Assembly: GCF_000219625.1 (NCBI RefSeq)
Contig: NC_018210.1
Location: 372,001 to 436,000 of the forward strand
DNA length: 64,000 bases
Source of the DNA: Zymoseptoria tritici IPO323
Taxonomy: Eukaryota; Ascomycota; Dothideomycetes; Mycosphaerellales; Mycosphaerellaceae
Direction: 5' to 3'
The position numbers and the translations under genes are program-made. Shown here piece after piece: positions 30,801-55,000 of this stretch (position 1 is its first letter; each line of letters opens with the position of its first letter). The notes under the pieces are model-generated. The model had not been told where the DNA came from. It saw only the letters and a program-made list of their open reading frames with translations, and made no database searches.

Positions 30801-31303
30801 CCCCCCTATTCTTTACTATAATAGTATTTAGGCCGCGGTAGTCGATATAGAGGCGGAGTATATTATCTTTCTTTCTTATAAAGAGGATTAGCGCGCCCGC
30901 CGAGGATGTCGAGTAGCGAATAAAGCTACTCTTTAGGTGTTTAGGGAGCTACTTACGTATCGCGTCTATTTCTACCTCCGATAGAGCGTATATAGGGCTA
31001 AATAGGACCTTTCCTCCCTTAACTAAGTCGATTCTAAGATTATAAGGTCTATACGGCGCTAATTCGCCGGCTAATTCCTCCGAAAAGACGTCGGAGAAGT
31101 TAGAATACGCTACTAGGACACTATTCTAGCCTAGTTCGAGTCTATCCTCGACCTCCTAGATAGATATAATATAAAGAGCTACCTCGACTTCTCCGAGACA
31201 CTCCCGGTAGAACCTGTCCGGGGATACTACTACTATTACTTATCGCCTTCGAGGTTTTAGTCTCTAGAAGACCTTCTTTAGGGCGAAGTTAATACCCGGG
31301 TTA

Positions 31304-31379
31304 GACGGCCGAACAGACTGCACCTTCACGCGGTGGCCGTTGTAAGTACCTTCCTTAGAAGGGAAACCAAGACAGTCTG
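31304..31379 (+). ncRNA. HDV-like self-cleaving ribozyme (copy 1)
   Basis: 76 nt. P1 gacggcc/ggccgtt (first pair G-U), P2 cagactg/cagtctg, P3 acc/ggt with loop ttcacgc, P4 ccttc/gaagg with loop ctta, junction J4/2 gaaaccaaga with the proposed catalytic C in ACCAA. Cleavage is predicted 5' of 31304, the first base after the target duplication. Confidence 0.82.
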
Positions 31380-32029
31380 GAAGAAACCTCCTCGAAAACC
31401 TCTCGAAATCCGCCCGAAATCCTTCTCGAAATCCGCCTCGAAACACAAGCTACAGAACAACAGCACGATTCGAACGCCCTCTACGCTACAAACGCTACAA
31501 ACAAGAAGAAGAAGAAGAAGCAATCCACTCTGCCCTATACGCGCACCTCCTCGAAATCCGAACCGAAACACTTTAAAGAGCTAGAACAGTTAGTGGAATC
31601 TATAACTCTACGATTAACCTACGTAGCTGTATACGTTTAGAAGCGGCATACAGTTCCACAAAGGCATATTGAGGATAAGAGAAGGCAGCGAGTTGGACAG
31701 CTGCTTCTGCTTTTGCACTGCTTTTGCACTACGTTTCGAATTTGCAGCATGCGTACGTGCGAAGCGGAAGGATCCGCTGAAAATTCTACAAAAAGCTTGG
31801 CGCGAAAATTCTACAGCCCCGGCTACACGACACTCGTTGGATTTCCTTTGTTTTGCGCTGCTTCTAAAGTCCTTTGGCATTTTGCCTTAGGCACGGGGTT
31901 TCCCCTAAGGTCAAAGAATACCGAAAGAATTTGATTGTAAATAGATCTACTGCCTTGCTTACAAGGCCGTCCTACATAGTCTTGGACTCCGAAAGGACGT
32001 AAATGGAACAAACAAACAAACAAACAAAC
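31304..32029 (+). mobile_element. SINE-like element copy 1 with 5' HDV-like ribozyme
   Basis: Inserted in Gypsy-2 with the 13-bp duplication aatacccgggtta (31291-31303; 32030-32042) and ending in (aaac)n. It starts exactly at the ribozyme P1 strand gacggcc. Normal CpA/TpG content against a RIP-mutated background shows a later insertion. Copy 1 shares with copy 2 the motif ggggtttcccc and the gccttg/caaggc 3' hairpin. It contains an (aag)n run and repeats of gcttttgcact. It has no coding capacity that I can support; ORFs in it are short and not shared by all copies. A non-autonomous non-LTR retroelement is the best call; the partner LINE is not in this window. Confidence 0.85.
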
Positions 32030-33597
32030 AATACCCGGGTTATACTTCTCGAGCTAGGGTATACCGAGTAGGACTTCGAAACTATAGATACGTCCTACCT
32101 TAAACGTATCTACGTACCCCTACGCCTTACTAGAGGTGTCTATAGCTTTATAGGAGTTTCTCGTTTCTCTAAAGACCTATAGGCTCTAACTATTTAGAGT
32201 TAGGTACTTTATCTAGGTAGATAGCTCGGAAACTATCTACCCTATCTCCTTTACTAGTATAGAGTCGTAGAAGTTGTCCTAGGCGCCGCTATTAATTAGG
32301 CCCCGGACCTTTCTAGACCCCCCTAGGCCGTTTAGCGTTAACTCGACGCTAATTAGGCGCCCCTACTAGGCGCGGCGCTTTCCTAGCTTAGTAGAACGCT
32401 ACTAATCCTTACTATAGAGGACTTAGCCTACCTAAGTAATAGCGTCTACTTAGGGGGCGTCTCTTTCCCTAAATCCTTCTATAGGTACTAGTTAGTATAG
32501 TCGCGGCGGATATGCCCGACTTGTTAGTATCCGTAGTACGTAGCCTTAGAAGGGGCCTTCTAGTCCTAATCGCTATAGCTAGTCTTCGCCTTCTTACTAT
32601 AAGGAGTAATAGAGCTATCGCTAGGGCGCTTCTTCGCCTATCTAGCGGCCTTCTCGGTAGACTACCTCTTACGAGCCTCTTATTTAGAACCTTCGTTAGC
32701 GCAATAGGCCTTCTTAGCCCTCTCCTCGGCGTCTACTAGGTTTAGTAGAGCGGTAAGATAGTTCGAGAGGCGGTTACGAAGGGTCTATAGAAGGGCGCTA
32801 TAGAAACTAAGGATCTTCTTACTATTGTCCCTTTTATCGAGCTCCTTCTAGAGGGTCTTTAGCTCCTCGAGGAGTTCCTCTAGCGTACAGTTACCTAGGG
32901 TAACCTTTTTTAGCTTCTCGTAGGCCTTTTTACGCCGTTCGGTTTCTATACCTATCGAGTTAAGTATAACCTCCTTTATTATAGGCTAAGTTAGATTAGA
33001 ATAGTCGTCGAGGCCGTCGACGTAGCGCTCCTAGTAGTCTTACTAGAGCTTTCCTATATAGTCGGTAGTAAAGTCGACCTTATAGTCTTCGCGTTCGGCG
33101 AAACCTTCGTATTGCCTAAAGGCTCTTTCGAGGGCTCGGACCTAGTCGTCGTAGCTTATACGCGACTTACCCTCGAAGACTAGTAGCTCCTTTAACTTAG
33201 GGAGGTTATCCCTTATCTTAGTATACTAGTTAGGTTTGGAGAAAAGCTAGTAGAGGGTAGCCGTCCTTAGGTTTCCTTCTAGCGTAGAATAGTCTAGCTC
33301 GGTATAGAGTTCCTTAATCTTCTACTAGAGGATTAAGAATTCGAAAGTAGTACGGGCGACTTCGTTATCGTACTCCCGGGTAGCCTTTCCTTCCGCGGTC
33401 TCTCCCGAGCTAGGCTAGTTAGGAAGGTTAACGTCCTATAGCTAACTAGTAGGCGTAGTAGATAGCTCCGTAGAGGAAGCGCTTACCTACTATCGGGTAG
33501 AGGTATTAGGAAGAGAATCGTCCTAACGACGAGTAACCTTTAGAGCTATATTAGTAGTTTTCGGTATAGTTATACGGTTGTTTTTAATCGAATCGAA

Positions 33598-34690: not shown

Positions 34691-34848
34691 TTAGGTGTTT
34701 CCGGAGCTAGCTATAGTAATAGTCGACGACCGACTATACTATTTACGAGTACTAGACGGTAACTAACGATACGAGCTAAAGGAAGGGGGTATTATAGTAG
34801 ATTAAAGGCGTTAGAGCTACTAGAGCTTATAAACGAGTATTATAGATT

Positions 34849-34924
34849 GACGGCCGAACAGACTGCACCTTCACGCGGTGGCCGTCGTAAGTACCTTCCT
34901 CGGAAGGGAAACTAAGACAGTTTG
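34849..34924 (+). ncRNA. HDV-like self-cleaving ribozyme (copy 2)
   Basis: 76 nt. P1 gacggcc/ggccgtc perfect; P2 cagactg/cagtttg with one G-U; P3 acc/ggt; loop ttcacgc; P4 ccttc/gaagg with loop ctcg; J4/2 gaaactaaga with the proposed catalytic C in ACUAA. All pairings are kept. Confidence 0.85.
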
Positions 34925-35640
34925 GAAGAAACCTCCTCGAAAACCTCTCGAAATCCGCCCGAAATCTATCCTTCTCGAAATCCGCCTCGAAACACAAGCT
35001 ATAACAGAACAACGGCACGATTCGAACGAACAGCCCTCTACGAACAAGAAGAAGCAGTCTACTCTATCCTATACGCGCACCTCCTCGAAATCCGAATCGA
35101 AATCGCATGTCCCTAGAGACGTCGTCGCCCTCGAAAGGAAGCATACATGCACTTTAAAGAGCTGGAACTCGGTGGAATCCACAACTCTGCGATTAACCTG
35201 CGTTGTCGTAGATAGAACTGCTACTACGATACTACAAAGGCATATTAAGGATAAGAGAAGGCAGCGAGTTAGATAGCTGCTTTTGTACTGCTTTTGCACG
35301 GCATTTTGCACTGCTTTTGCATGGCATTTTGCACTGCTTCTGCACTACATTTCGAATTTGCAGCGTGCGAAGCGGAAGGATCCGCTGAAAATTCTGCAAA
35401 AAGCTTGGCGCGAAAATTCTGCAGCCTTGGGCCGCAGCAACACTCGTTTGATTTCCTTTGTCTCGCATTTGTTTAAAGTCCTTTAGCATTGCCTTAGGCA
35501 CGGGGTTTCCCCTAAGGTTAAAGAATACCGAAGAATTTGATTGTAAATAGATCTACTGCCTTGCCCTTAGGGCAAGGCCGTCCTACATAGTCTTGGACTC
35601 CGAAAGGACGTAAATGGAACAAACAAACAAACAAACAAAC
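34849..35640 (+). mobile_element. SINE-like element copy 2 with 5' HDV-like ribozyme
   Basis: Longest copy (792 bp), with perfect duplications at 34831-34848 and 35641-35658; the first four bases (aaac) may belong to the tail, leaving at least 14 bp (gagtattatagatt). The extra length comes from a tandem expansion of actgcttttgca/cggcattttgc around 35283-35345. The (aag)n run is short here. The 3' hairpin is gccttgccc/gggcaaggc at 35558-35578. It lies in RIP-mutated DNA to the right of the Tc1-like transposase. Confidence 0.87.
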
Positions 35641-35658
35641 AAACGAGTATTATAGATT

Positions 35659-48048: not shown

Positions 48049-50200
48049 TTCCGCGGCTTTAATAGCTAAAATACATATTATAACGATTATAAGCCTAACC
48101 GAGAGATCGAATGCGAATGTTAATCGATAAACATTAAGTAGTGTTATTACCTAGAGCCTTCAAAACTTCTATATGCCCTCGTAGCTCGTCGCAGGACGTA
48201 TACTAAACCTACGAGATGTTTCTTTATAGGAACTCGTCTACGCGACGTAAAATAACTACGGTATTCGACGGGACAATGCTATCTAATTTAAGAACCTAAT
48301 TTACGATTGCGTAGTACAAAACGAGGACGAGGACGAGGCGATAGACGATTAAAGCGATTAAAGCGATTAAAGCGACTACGAATAACTTAATACGATAATA
48401 CTTTATACGAATACTAGTTACTCGGTAGGGACACGTTATAAAATTTTTAAACCTAATTTCGACTAAATTAATTAGACATTAACGACATAGGGTCTCTAAT
48501 CTCTCTAATCCCGGGAAAAAACTCTTACCTATTATTAACTACGGCCGACACGATAGCTAAACTACCGCCTAACGAGACTACTAAAGTACGTAAAAGACGC
48601 CTTTAATCTACGAGAGACTTAAGTTAAAAGTACTAGGACAAGAAGAAAGAACAAGAACGACAAGCCGCTACTACCGCTAAACGAGCGCGAGAAAACTAAC
48701 GACGACTTAAAGTATAGCGACAAACTGCTCTTACTTAGAAGCAACAAAAGACTTTCTTATTACTTAAATACGGAGGAACTAAGGTCCTACGTTAATACTT
48801 TAACGTCGATATAACTAACAACGCAATTCTAGTAACTACTACTAAAGGGGTGCAAGGCGATAAGAATTCTATACACCTACTAAAAAATCTAAAATCTAAG
48901 CGCCGTACCGAGGCTACAATTACTTTAACTACCGATATACCTACACCGGCTAAGCTATCTGCTATTAAACCAAAGACGAAGAAGCCTAAAGACAAAACAA
49001 AGAAACGTAAAAAGCGCGCATTAAAACGCGCTAAACGACTACCTTAGACTAAGGTAAACTCGGCCCTAGAGACAACTAGTAAAAACAACGACGAGAACGA
49101 CGAAGAAGAAGAAGAGGACCTGTACGGTGCGACCTTAAGCGACGAGTCTAACACGCAAGATATTAAGGTTAAACTAATTTTACGTACGCCCTTACCGATT
49201 ATTAACGAGACGACTCGACGTTTTAGCGCTACCCCGATTAACGACATTATCTATACGTCTATAATGCTACTAAAAAGACAACCGGCGCGTGCGAGCGTAA
49301 GCACGAGTAGGAGCGCTCCGAATACTTCCTCGCGAGCTATTATATCCTCCTCGTAGAAATACCGATAAGCGAAGCAAAAGGCGGCACTCGATTAGAAGAA
49401 CTTTACCGCGGTAAAGAAGTTAAGGAACTCGGATAACTACACCGATTAGTATAACTTACTTAAAATTGCATGCCTTTAAGCGGGTATCTCGGACTTCTTC
49501 CTAGGACTCGAAGCCGAGCTATAGCCTATTAAGAGCAATAACATTAATAATGTTAATAACTATATGCTCGAATTAGCTAACTAGTAAGGGAAGAACGAGT
49601 CGCTGCTCGGTTTTATCTTATCTACGTATAAGTAGCACATGTAGGATAAAATTGTTTAGTATACGAAGGCCTATAATGCGCTATTAATTCTCGACATTAA
49701 ATGCATAAACACTAGAAGCAACATTGCGTAGGAGCGGTTTAATAACCTCCTTAATTATAACTTCGGACTCGCGAAAGATTTTCCTAAATTCCTTCGTAAA
49801 TTTAACAAGAAACATAGCGATCTATGTCGCTTACGAGGGGATATTAACTAGAGCGGCGAGAACATAAAGTGTTTCTTCTTCGAAAGGTTACTAGGAGATT
49901 ATTTCGCTAACTTCCTACGATTAACCGCATTAACCTTTGTAATCGCTAGATACGGTAGACGAGGATCTAGTCGCAACCTAACGTTCGAAGAAATAGCCTC
50001 TCGCGCCGAGGATTACTAGACTAGCATCTCTCGAAACGATACGACAAAGGATTTAATTAAGAGCCGCTTATTTGCTACCTATAATCCTATAAAGAGAAAA
50101 TTCGACGGTTAAGGAGAACCCCGACTTAGTTAGCTTATTAGTAATCTAAACGCTAAGTGTTAATCAAAAGGTTATAAGAAGCACAATTATACGAACGGTA

Positions 50201-50276
50201 GACGGCCGAACAGACTGCACCTTCACGCGGTGGCCGTCGTAAGTACCTTCCTCGGAAGGGAAACTAAGACAGTCTG
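50201..50276 (+). ncRNA. HDV-like self-cleaving ribozyme (copy 3)
   Basis: The cleanest copy: P1 gacggcc/ggccgtc, P2 cagactg/cagtctg, P3 acc/ggt and P4 ccttc/gaagg are all Watson-Crick. Loop L3 is ttcacgc and loop L4 ctcg. The AC in L3 can pair with the GU right after P1 to form P1.1. J4/2 is gaaactaaga. Predicted cut before 50201. Confidence 0.87.
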
Positions 50277-50963
50277 GAAGAAACCTCCTCGAAAACCTCT
50301 CGAAATCCGCCCGAAATCCTTCTCGAAATCCGCCTCGAAACACAAGCTACAGAACAGCACGATTCGAACGAATAGCCCTCTACGCTACGAACGAGAAGAA
50401 GAAGAAGAAGAAGAAGCAGTCCACTCTGCCCTATACGCGCACCTCCTCGAAATCCGAATCGAAATCGTATGTCCCTTCTCTAGAGACTTCGTCGCCCTCG
50501 AAGGAAGTATACATACACTTTAAAGAGCTGGAACAGTCGGTAGAATCTACAACTCTGCGATTAACCTACGTAGCTATATTGTTTGGAAGCGATGCAGTTC
50601 TACAAAGGCATATTAAGGACAAGAGAAGACAGCGAGTTAGATAGCTGCTTTGCATTCGAATTTTGCATTCGAATTTGCAGCGTATGTACGAAGCGGAAGG
50701 ATCCGCTGAAAATTCTGCAAAAGCTTAGCGCGAAAATTCTGCAGCCTTAGGCTGCAACACTCGTTTAATTTCCTTTGTCTCGCATTTGTTTAAAGTCCTT
50801 TAGCATTGCCTTAGGCACGGGGTCTCCCCTAAGGTTAAAGAATACCGAAAAATCTGATTGTAACTAGATCTACTGCTTTGCCTTTATGGCAAAGCCGTCT
50901 TATATAGTCTTGGACTCCGAAAGGACGTAAATGGAACAAACAAACAAACAAACAAACAAACAA
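50201..50963 (+). mobile_element. SINE-like element copy 3 with 5' HDV-like ribozyme
   Basis: Inserted in the copia gag zinc-knuckle region with the 13-bp duplication tatacgaacggta (50188-50200; 50964-50976). It ends in (caaa)n. It belongs with copy 4 to a second subfamily marked by ggggtctcccc and the gctttgcc/ggcaaagc 3' hairpin (50875-50895). (aag)n run present at ~50395. Light mutation only. Confidence 0.88.
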
Positions 50964-51295
50964 TATACGAACGGTATGTACTAGAAACAGAATAACGAAG
51001 AGTACTAGAAGATAAAGAAGTAGCGGATACTAGAGGGTACGTAGCGGGACAACAAGCCTAGGGCGACTAGCTTAAACTCGACCGGTGTTTACCCTTAACG
51101 ACGCTCGTACTTAACATAAGGCGACCCTGCCGACGAAGCACTAATAGGAACTAACATTAACACTAGCGTTAGAATAGCTACGAAATCGACCGGCAACTTT
51201 ATAAAGAATATAGTAACATTTAGCGATAACAGCTAACTAGCGGACTTCCGACCTAAACAATCGACGATTTTCCTATTAAATTTATGCTCTACTTT

Positions 51296-52059
51296 CGACG
51301 GCCGAACAGACTGCACCTTCACGCGGTGGCCGTCGTAAGTACCTTCCTCGGAAGGGAAACTAAGACAGTCTAGAAGAAACCTCCTCGAAAACCTCTCGAA
51401 ATCCGCCCGAAATCCTTCTCGAAATCCGCCTCGAAACACAAGCTACAGAACAGCACGATTCGAACGAATAGCCCTCTACGCTACGAACAAGAAGAAGAAG
51501 AAGAAGAAGAAGCAGTCCACTCTGCCCTATACGCGCACCTCCTCGAAATCCGAATCGAAATCGCATGTCCCTTCTCTAGAGACTTCGTCGCCCTCGAAGG
51601 AAGCATACATACACTTTAAAGAGCTGGAACAGTCGGTAGAATCCACAACTCTGCGATTAACCTACGTAGCTATATCGTTTGGAAGCGATGCAGTTCCACA
51701 AAGGCATATTAAGGACAAGAGAAGACAGCGAGTTAGACAGCTGCTTTACATTCGAATTTTGCATTCGAATTTGTAGCGTATGTGCGAAGCGGAAGGATCC
51801 GCTAAAAATTCTGCAAAAGCTTGGCGCGAAAATTCTGTAGCCTTAGGCTGCAACACTCGTTTAATTTCCTTTGTCTCGCATTTGTTTAAAGTCCTTTAGC
51901 ATTGCCTTAGGCACGGGGTCTCCCCTAAGGTCAAAGAATACCGAAAAATCTAATTGTAACTAGATCTACTGCTTTGCCTTTATGGCAAAGCCGTCCTACA
52001 TAGTCTTAGACTCCGAAAGGACGTAAATGGAACAAACAAACAAACAAACAAACAAACAA
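51296..52059 (+). mobile_element. SINE-like element copy 4 with 5' HDV-like ribozyme
   Basis: Inserted in copia between gag and protease with the 13-bp duplication tatgctctacttt (51283-51295; 52060-52072). One extra base c precedes the ribozyme start at 51297. Same subfamily as copy 3, with 3' hairpin at 51971-51991. Full length, (caaa)n tail, normal CpA/TpG. Confidence 0.87.
51297..51372 (+). ncRNA. HDV-like self-cleaving ribozyme (copy 4)
   Basis: As copy 3, except that the last base of P2 is a instead of g (cagtcta), opening only the terminal P2 pair. P1, P3, P4, L3 and the ACUAA junction are unchanged. Confidence 0.83.
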
Positions 52060-55000
52060 TATGCTCTACTTTTATTACATACTACAAGACGGTAAAAGAA
52101 GTTAAGCCTAATATTACACCGGCAAAGATTAAGGAATTTGCGTTAAAAGAGGATAACTAGATTGTCGACACAGGTTCGGAGGAACACATCTACAACAATC
52201 TCGCCTACTTCGAGGACTATTAAGAACTCGCTAAACCTATTAAGATTATCGGCGCTAGCACTAGTTTTCAAATACTCGGTGTTAGAAAGGTAACCCTAAC
52301 AGTTACTTATCTAGGGGGAGCACAAAGGATAGTGCTGTCGAAAGCGTGCTACGTGCCTTAAATAGGGGTTAACTTACTATTAGTCGTACGACTAACTACC
52401 GAAGAAACCGGATTCTCTACGATTAAGGGATTATGCGCTTTTACGTTCCTAAAGACTAGACAAGTTATCTGCACTAGTACGTAGCACGGGCATCTCTAGA
52501 AACTAGACGTCTTAATCGTACGCTCGTTTCTCTTTACCTAGGCTAATAGCTTACCGGACGATTACTTTACTTCCGCGTTCTTTAATGCGAGGACCTTAAA
52601 TCGATTGCCTATTTATGTTTAGCATTAAAGGATAGGACACATAGGCGTCTCTATTCTGCGAGGTTACCTAGATCGGCTAGGTATTAACTACATTAATAGA
52701 GATTTTATCTATAAGTCCTACCGACGTATAAAAGCGAAACAAAGGTTCCCTAAGTTAGAGCCTATGCGAGAAATAGAGCGATGCGCGAAGATATATATAG
52801 ACTTAGGAGGATACCTTCCGGACTCTCGTAGTAGAGAAAGATACTACCTTCTAATAGTCGATGATTTTACCCGATACTCCTAGATATATACGCTAAAATC
52901 GAAGTAAGCCGGTAAAGTCTACCGATGTTATCGAGACTTCGAACGGCGAATAGCTATAAAAGGCTAGGTAATTAAGGCGATTCGCGCGGACGGTAGCTTA
53001 GAGTTTACTAATATTATAACTAATACTATACGAGCCTATAGGATCGAATTTACGATTTCCTCGCTCTACGAACTATCGCAAAATGGAGTCGTTAAGCGTA
53101 AGTACTAAACGCTATAGAACATTATTCGATGTATAAAATAGGATAGCGCTCTTTAAAATAAGATGTAGCCTAAATTGCTAAAGGCTACGATATTTATTAA
53201 CAACAGATCGCCGACCTCTTTATTAAAGAACATAAAAACGCTATACGAAGCGCTAACTAGTAACATACCGGAGATCGACTAGATTCGAAGAGTTAGCTGT
53301 CGCGCGTATAAACTCGTTCTAAAGAGAAAATTCCCGAAGAAATACGATAAACGCGCACATTTGCGAATACTAGTTAGTTTCGAGGGAACAAATCTCTTCC
53401 GCCTATAGGACCCTATTACTAGAAAAGTTGAGCGAGCGCGAGAAGTACTTTTCGATAAAGACGTACGACTTAACGCTGCTACGCTTAAAATGCTAGTACA
53501 ACTACTACCTCTCTCGGCAAACCTCGATGCGCCTAACTACGCCGAAGACATTATTCCTAACATTACTAAGAACTACCCGCCTAGTTTCCCCGAATAGTAG
53601 GCTGTACGGCTTAAGGGGGAGAAACATAGGCGTCTACTAAACGACATTCTGTTTAATCCTATTTAGCCTATACTAACGCTAACTCCGAATAGACTAACGC
53701 TAATTTAAGTGCTAACGAATCCTCGACTCCCCTCGATACGCGAATAGGCACTAATAGTTAACTTTATATATACCGGCACTCGGTTAGCGAACTTAGTATT
53801 AATTTTCTATATAGCAAAGCGAGGAGACGCAGATCTAGTCCTTAAAATTAAGATCGAGGACGAGAGCGACCCTATTATAATAGAACACTAACCGAGTAAC
53901 AAAGAGGACGAATCCCTTACGACTATAGCATAACTGTCGGAGAGCGACCCTATCGCACTAAAGACTATTTACGAGGCGAAGTTATCCCTACATTATCGAT
54001 AATAGAATATAGCGGTCGACGAAGAGATGAAATCGCTAAAGGACAACGACACCTAGGAAATAGTCGATAAAGGTACGGTTACCGTACTAATCCTATTAGG
54101 AAAATAGGTCTTTACCCTAAAACGAGGTGTCGACGGTACGATCGAAAGATTTAAGGCACGATAGGTCGTCCGCGGTTTCGAGCAACGCGAGGGAATTAAC
54201 TTCTCCGAGACGTTCGCCGCGGTCGTTAAACTAATAAGCTACCGAATTATATTCGTACTCGTAGCAAAGAATAGGTAGCATATCTATTAAATAGATGTTA
54301 AAATAGCGTTCCTCTACGGCAAAATCGATGCGGAGATTTACGTTAAGCTACTACCTAGCTTCGAGATTAAGGGAAAAGTGTACAAACTAAAGAAAGCGCT
54401 CTACGGACTAAAACAAGCACCGAGGATATAGTATTAAATATTAACGACTACTTTGCGAGAGTTAGGCTACGAACCCTGCCCGTATAATTATGCGGTCTTT
54501 AAGAAGGGATTAACATTAATCCTCGCCTACGTCGATAACCTACTAATCGTAGGACCTAACCTTAAACAGATTAATTAATTAAAGGAAGACCTATTAAAAC
54601 GCTTCTAAATAAAGGACATAGGAGAATACAAATTCTTCCTTAGAATTAGCATTAAACGGTTAGAGGGTAAGATTCGACTAACGTAAACAGCGCTCTTTAA
54701 GGCCATAATAGAGAAATTCGGACTCGTAGACGCTAACCCTACCGCAACGCTATATGTCTCGAAGGACAGATAGAAGCCTACACCCGAAGGAGAAATCGCG
54801 ACAGACGCACAACGTCTTAAATATTAATTAATAGTAGGATCCTTAATATATAGGATGCTAGGAACCCGACCAGACCTTGCATTTAGCGTCTTAATAGCTA
54901 GTCGATACTACTCGAACCTATTAAAGAAACACTTCGAGTAGGTTAAACGGATCCTTCGATATATTCTCGGTACCCTAGATTACGGACTAGAATACGGAGG

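Follow-up and report, generated by a model that had tools for sequence, protein, structure and literature searches.

In a 64,000-nucleotide stretch of the Zymoseptoria tritici IPO323 genome (the window), we found that positions 50201..50276 are best read as an HDV-like self-cleaving ribozyme, which would make up the 5'-terminal 76 nt of a SIDE-like retroelement, non-autonomous and dependent on a LINE, and not the head of a classical Pol III SINE. From sequence comparison, we put the probability of this reading at about 0.8. The fold and its place are real. It very probably belongs to the HDV-like ribozyme family and sits on a SIDE-type element, and the RNA of the element probably excises itself from longer transcripts and is then copied by a helper retrotransposon.

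Table 1. Positions in the window of the ribozyme fold and of the element copies that carry it.
Feature	Position	Strand	Remarks
Type-A HDV-like ribozyme, copy 3	50201..50276	+	76 nt
Copy 3 P1, 5' strand GACGGCC	50201..50207	+	predicted cut before 50201
Copy 3 P1, 3' strand GGCCGTC	50232..50238	+	
Copy 3 P2, 5' strand CAGACTG	50211..50217	+	
Copy 3 P2, 3' strand CAGTCTG	50270..50276	+	
Copy 3 P3 (ACC/GGT) and 7-nt L3 TTCACGC	50219..50231	+	C50224-G50239 is the P1.1 pair
Copy 3 P1.1, 3' side GT	50239..50240	+	G50239-C50224 pair; T50240/T50223 mismatch
Copy 3 P4 hairpin CCTTC-CTCG-GAAGG	50246..50259	+	
Copy 3 J4/2 core C-T-A-A	50264..50267	+	C50264 is the presumed general acid
Copy 3 5' TSD (TATACGAACGGTA)	50188..50200	+	
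Copy 3 3' TSD	50964..50976	+	
Element copy 3, G1 to end of (AAAC)n tail	50201..50963	+	
Copy 3 3' part common with LINE L053, including 3' hairpin and (AAAC)n tail	50757..50963	+	71% over 224 aligned nt
Type-A ribozyme, copy 1	31304..31379	+	C38T gives a G1-U wobble
Element copy 1	31304..32029	+	TSD AATACCCGGGTTA at 31291-31303 / 32030-32042
Type-A ribozyme, copy 2	34849..34924	+	G-U in P2
Element copy 2	34849..35640	+	18-nt direct repeat 34831-34848 / 35641-35658; first letters of the repeat may be tail
Type-A ribozyme, copy 4	51297..51372	+	G76A breaks last P2 pair; RF02682 match 51297-51373
Element copy 4	51297..52059	+	TSD TATGCTCTACTTT at 51283-51295 / 52060-52072; extra c at 51296

The four copies of the element in the window (Table 1) are 726–792 nt long, all four end in (AAAC)n, and exact direct repeats of 13, 18, 13 and 13 nt surround copies 1, 2, 3 and 4, respectively. 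An earlier sequence-only reading had claimed four 76-nt HDV double pseudoknots, and these are present at 31304, 34849, 50201 and 51297 with the letters that it gave for P1, P2, P3, L3 and P4 in every copy. The differences between copies that it described (a G-U pair in P1 of copy 1, a G-U pair in P2 of copy 2 and a broken terminal P2 pair in copy 4) were also seen. It had placed the cut exactly at the junction of element and target. In copies 1–3, the predicted site lies at the edge of the TSD and G1 adjoins the end of the repeat; in copy 4, the site is one nucleotide off. Copy 4 starts 1,096 bp downstream of the start of copy 3 and matches it at 98%; by eye, the sequence around the two (50977-51282, 52073-52580) resembles a mutated Copia-type polyprotein gene. 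The window holds further direct repeats outside the element, at 91–97% identity (26551-26850/33600-33899, 13355-13499/26095-26239 and 47905-48028/56658-56781).

The window spans C9:372001-436000 of the assembly. We searched the genome (39,686,251 bases in 21 contigs) with the 39-nt 5' end of these copies, which we call type A, and found 172 matches with up to three mismatches as compared to 0 for a reversed-pattern control; the places listed individually are the exact matches only. The 29-nt 3' end of the element has 416 genome matches. We read 20 regions, a non-random sample in which 3 came from partial matches and 17 (two of them overlapping) contain the 3' end but have no exact type-A match in their vicinity. 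Some of the 20 regions are type A; the others resemble the element only from position 133-138 onwards, and upstream of that point they carry a different 5' end, type B (GGYCGGC-GAC-GAGGAA-C-ACC-TGTACGY-GGT-GCCGGCT...), which has the same HDV topology and, like type A, starts directly after the TSD. A 38-nt type-B pattern with up to three mismatches has 95 genome matches, with 0 for its reversed-pattern control and none within the window, and the element body is present in all 19 type-B copies read. When we compared the two types, we found that the letters of P1, P2 and P4 differ, while the topology, P3, the C-N-A-A core and the place at the TSD junction are alike. The TSD adjoins nt 1 in 37 of the 40 type-A copies (two have one extra nucleotide and one TSD is lost at a locus end) and in 18 of the 19 type-B copies; in the 19th (L052_3167), the same TSD is visible by eye with two differences. 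The copies were collected by similarity of their 5' ends (up to four substitutions in 39 nt for type A, up to three in 30 nt for type B), which favours intact helices and inflates 5'-end conservation. Types A and B may represent two acquisitions or one deeply diverged ribozyme. Because the A and B leaders differ up to body position 133-138, the breakpoint there favours exchange of a whole 5' module, which stops short of proving separate origins.

Pairing in the helices is nearly complete in both types. Standard pairs make up 278/280 positions of P1, 272/280 of P2, 120/120 of P3 and 200/200 of P4 in the 40 type-A copies, and 133/133 of P1, 114/114 of P2 and 56/57 of P3 in the 19 type-B copies, where an anchor pattern, found in 19/19, served to place the C-N-A-A and the P2 3' strand. 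Both types form the nested pseudoknot of P2/P3 with P1, with P3 abutting P1, and in both P1 begins at nt 1, where HDV-like ribozymes have a P1 of 6–7 bp. HDV-like ribozymes share a conserved J4/2 cytosine followed by N-A-A, and the RF02682 consensus agrees with this pattern. The C-N-A-A that the sequence-only reading had located in J4/2 is indeed there, as C-Y-A-A-G, in 40/40 type-A copies and also in 19/19 type-B copies. The first pair, at the predicted cut, is G-C in 35, G-U in 3 and A-C in 2 of the 40 type-A copies and G-U in 19/19 type-B copies. P4 is a plain hairpin in both types; in type B it takes seven forms, including CTGCG/CGCAG and CTACG/CGTAG, and its pair 46-64 shows a two-sided change from G-C to A-U.

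P1.1 is the weakest point of type A. The register first proposed for it (AC with GU, nt 25-26 with nt 39-40) is paired at 80/80 positions in type A but at 0/38 in type B, and this assignment is probably off register. An alternative register, in which L3 nt 2-3 face the two nucleotides following P1, pairs at 38/38 positions in type B, and by eye it also fits the printed RF02682 consensus and a stand-alone fold from elsewhere in the genome (L031, described below). Applied to type A, it leaves a single standard pair (C24-G39 in 33 and U24-G39 in 7 of 40 copies) and a U-U mismatch. Since P1.1 of HDV-like ribozymes has been described with one or two pairs (PMC4908430), type A may still be HDV-like.

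To compare the two types pair by pair, we aligned 9 of the 59 copies (8 distinct rows), chosen for differing letters and, in type B, for a short P4 form; L031 was excluded because MAFFT misplaced the 3' strand of its P1, and P2 and P4, which gap placement made uncountable here, were counted per type instead. Between A and B, three of the seven P1 pairs differ on both sides. With a structure that derives from the same sequences, the covariation score was 0.360 as compared to a shuffled mean of 0.177 (0 of 500 shuffles as high), and slid controls reached at most 0.131. The number of pairs changed on both sides (4; 39 of 500 shuffles as high) and the number of further pair types (7; 227 of 500) are not clearly above the shuffles.

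The 39 type-A copies that have a TSD differ pairwise by 0.036 on average within the ribozyme and by 0.097 over the remainder of the element; among 18 type-B copies, the values are 0.064 and 0.095. Low difference is not confined to the type-A ribozyme (0.024 at nt 81-120 and 0.018 at nt 721-760), and nt 41-80 of type B, where P4 length varies, are not conserved (0.103). All 75 differing letters in the type-A ribozyme are transitions, and outside it the commonest changes are C-to-T (371) and G-to-A (365). Within the type-A ribozyme, variation falls mainly in L4 (nt 53 and 54), the N of C-N-A-A (nt 65), L3 nt 24 and the last P2 pair (nt 76).

How often such a fold arises by chance was estimated with a descriptor (P1 of 7 bp, P2 of at least 6 bp, P3 of 3 bp, a 7-nt L3, P4 and C-N-A-A) that was composed after the copies had been seen. 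It matches the window four times on the + strand, at exactly the four copies, which as copies of one element count as one independent event, and 0 times on the – strand. On 406 dinucleotide-shuffled single-strand windows there were 3 matches, approximately 1e-7 per position. The descriptor permits one P1 wobble, and in the loci read it gives 39 type-A and 9 type-B matches (overlapping loci counted twice); type-B matches are few because B copies with T3 have two P1 wobbles. Folded without pseudoknots, copy 3 (z = –2.05) and a type-B copy (z = –1.92) are mildly unusual.

The sequence-only reading had asked for HDV-family matches in Rfam and had named their absence above threshold, together with absence of cleavage in vitro, as evidence against itself. 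The computational half of this is what we observed: at gathering thresholds, no Rfam family matched anywhere in the window. The sole sub-threshold match came from RF02682 (HDV-F-prausnitzii) run in E-value mode on 50150-51450, where copy 4 aligned end to end, including G1, P1, P3/L3 and CUAAGA, at 19.5 bits (E = 0.74; gathering cut-off 44). This alignment backs the HDV fold only mildly. Copy 3, inside the same scanned interval, gives no RF02682 match at E ≤ 10, and in the four type-B loci scanned, type B itself gave no match at E ≤ 1. When we searched the genome with RF02682, RF00094 and RF01787, with the best 56–86 candidates scored, no type-A or type-B copy was among the matches listed; RF00094 and RF01787 gave nothing at E ≤ 5 (best 86 of 1114 and best 56 of 5924 candidates, respectively), and RF01788 gave fragments only (14–15 bits, E = 2.2–4). 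RF02682 at E ≤ 10 also gives matches in 8 of 14 control genomes.

A separate observation from these searches is the stand-alone HDV-like fold at L031 1501-1590 (G000:C3:3261629-3261718), which reaches 31.5 bits with RF02682 (E = 0.0087 genome-wide; cut-off 44) and satisfies the descriptor, being its only match among the 59 loci other than types A and B. Its P1 is CCCGAGC/GCTCGGG and its P2 is GGCAGGG/CCCTGCC; a C separates P2 from P3 and the pair at the cut is C-G, two features in which it resembles a published fungal HDV variant. No link between L031 and the element was seen.

At its 3' end, the element resembles a LINE. This LINE lies in the locus L053 (C2:3608600-3617000). Its ORF1-like frame had no match in Pfam; its ORF2 contains Exo_endo_phos_2 (9e-18) and RVT_1 (1.3e-30) domains. 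Only the last ~215 nt of this LINE match the 3' end of the element, at 71–80%, and in both a hairpin precedes the GGACGTAAATGGAACAAAC tail. The folding energy of the 3' hairpin is unusual in copy 1 (z = –3.24) and in the LINE (z = –3.27) but not in copy 3 (z = –1.12). The LINE 3' end was read in L053, and L054-L059 cover 5' regions only. In L053-L059, 7/7 LINE 5' ends begin at one base, CATCGACATCC..., behind different flanks, and by the descriptor none of the seven has the HDV fold. The TSDs and tail of the element fit target-primed reverse transcription, and the joining of an HDV-like 5' end to a LINE 3' end is the arrangement of a SIDE-type element. Classical Pol III SINEs have a tRNA, 5S or 7SL-like head; ARAGORN found no tRNA in the window, and with no Rfam family there at gathering, we rejected this class.

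The LINE in L053 (363-5962) has a long open ORF2, a 1148-aa frame with no stop, and the seven LINE copies share their 5' start and are about 91–98% alike there. Because of the open ORF2 and the near-alike 5' ends, this LINE is possibly recently active. Two other candidate drivers were set aside. A 3' end at C7:2657528 with RT 1.42 kb away turned out by eye to be type-B copies in or beside an LTR-type RT gene (L052), and L060, an RT locus near the end of C9 and the one other RT locus read beyond L053-L059, has the common 3' end only via another type-B copy. A ribozyme-bearing LINE may be present elsewhere in the genome, since few of the 150 scored RT matches were followed.

The earlier claim that all copies are full length holds for 4/4 in the window but not beyond it. 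Among 62 distinct 3' ends in the loci read (five mismatches allowed), a sample skewed towards full copies, a type-A 5' end lies upstream of 39 and a type-B 5' end upstream of 20, one belongs to the LINE and two are very short 5'-truncated copies. The short copies, L045 2231-2296 (–) and L056 near 377 (+; one of the two near a locus end), have by eye their own TSDs; they contain little beyond the (AAAC)n tail and the 3' hairpin, and their starts differ by 1–2 nt, which would fit a halt of reverse transcription at the foot of the hairpin. That the ribozyme is the cause of full length, as had been proposed, is a weak argument. Uniform 5' ends fit ribozyme processing but are no proof of ribozyme action, because the LINE without an HDV fold likewise starts uniformly (7/7).

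We weighed three other accounts of the 5' structure against these data. That it is a chance match in repeated sequence gains something from the fact that the four window copies are one independent sequence and from the descriptor having been made with them in view; however, the descriptor is very rarely matched in shuffles, and a chance fold is very unlikely because a second 5' end with other stem letters folds alike at the same junction. We give this account next to no weight. The pair of 5' ends also bears on the idea that the conserved block acts mainly as a promoter or as a site for protein binding, with the fold secondary. The trypanosomatid Pr77 is described as a promoter as well as a ribozyme (PMC8190864, PMC4035085), the LINE has precise 5' ends without the fold, and type-A conservation extends beyond the ribozyme. 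In contrast, a sequence-specific promoter would not explain why A and B have a common fold built from other stem sequences at the same place, and we regard this account as improbable.

A degenerate or inactive HDV relative, which folds alike without cutting and is kept by descent only, would account for the weak type-A P1.1, the sub-threshold Rfam score and the broken terminal pairs in some type-A copies (G1A in 2/39 and G76A in 7/39). However, the helices and C-Y-A-A-G are maintained in the 40 type-A and 19 type-B copies (chosen by 5'-end similarity), type B retains a two-pair P1.1, and variation in type A is concentrated at the few places named above. An inactive relative thus seems unlikely, although its probability is not negligible, and we favour an active HDV-like ribozyme at the 5' end of a SIDE-like element.

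Taken together, these data suggest a route by which the element could spread. A transcript started upstream, for example by read-through at the insertion site, would fold at the 5' end of the element, and self-cleavage ahead of G1 would release a 5'-OH RNA whose first nucleotide is that of the element. The LINE in L053, with intact endonuclease and RT, has the 3' hairpin and (AAAC)n tail in common with the element, and these would then recruit the LINE machinery for target-primed reverse transcription, which would yield TSDs adjoining nt 1. The family has two 5' forms, A and B, with a common ribozyme fold and position but not common stem sequences. We see even odds that a dispersed fungal element swapped one HDV-like ribozyme module for another while keeping its body and 3' end, with a ribozyme-free LINE as its driver. 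In that case, HDV-like ribozymes would act as interchangeable, promoter-free 'start modules' with which a LINE parasite spreads from read-through transcripts genome-wide. Retroelements of animals and trypanosomatids are known to carry HDV-like ribozymes, and such ribozymes are known independently as RNA motifs of fungi; here the fold caps a fungal retroelement that is abundant in one genome and whose likely driver lacks the fold. The element would thus be a tractable system in which to study how ribozymes are gained or swapped by non-autonomous elements and whether excision from longer transcripts replaces a promoter, and the fold could help to annotate such elements in fungal genomes by marking their 5' ends.

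PMC5640933 describes 230 HDV ribozyme representatives from 26 species of fungi, of which constructs from two species cleaved in vitro; the words 'transposon' and 'retrotranspos' are absent from the main text of that paper. The fungal variants have an extra nucleotide, usually C, between P2 and P3, as also seen here (C18 in type A, C17 in type B). The published variant typically has C-G at the cut and an E-loop in P4 (PMC5640933), whereas types A and B have G-C or G-U (A-C in two copies) and a plain P4 hairpin. Among the matches listed in our literature search, whose coverage lies mostly outside subscription papers, no title or abstract described an HDV-like ribozyme on a fungal retroelement. 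Papers on Z. tritici TEs mention SINEs ('RSX'; one SINE in a curated library), and the word 'ribozyme' is absent from their main texts. The published SINE 'RSX' and LINE 'RII_Cassini' are candidate counterparts of the elements described here.

HDV-like ribozymes at the 5' ends of R2, L1Tc and their relatives are established (PMC3774820, PMC4035085). The trypanosomatid NARTc, RIME and SIDER elements likewise carry a 5' HDV-like ribozyme (Pr77/L1Tc) on short retroelements, with the cut expected 5' of nt 1; there, the ribozyme is common to the autonomous element (PMC4035085), while here the LINE with the common 3' end is without the fold at 7/7 5' ends. Drosophila R2, with cleavage at the junction, has variable 5' junctions, in contrast to the tidy junctions of the element here (PMC3774820). 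The nearest precedent is provided by the Drosophila R2/R1 SIDEs as described in PMC3414825. These are also non-autonomous, with an HDV-like 5' end and the 3' end of another LINE (R1), and their TSDs are 14 bp as compared to 13–18 bp for the window copies. The R2/R1 SIDEs lie in rDNA and take their ribozyme from R2 (PMC3414825); in contrast, the element here is dispersed over many fungal contigs, its long body shows no relation to the LINE read, and it carries two alternative ribozymes.
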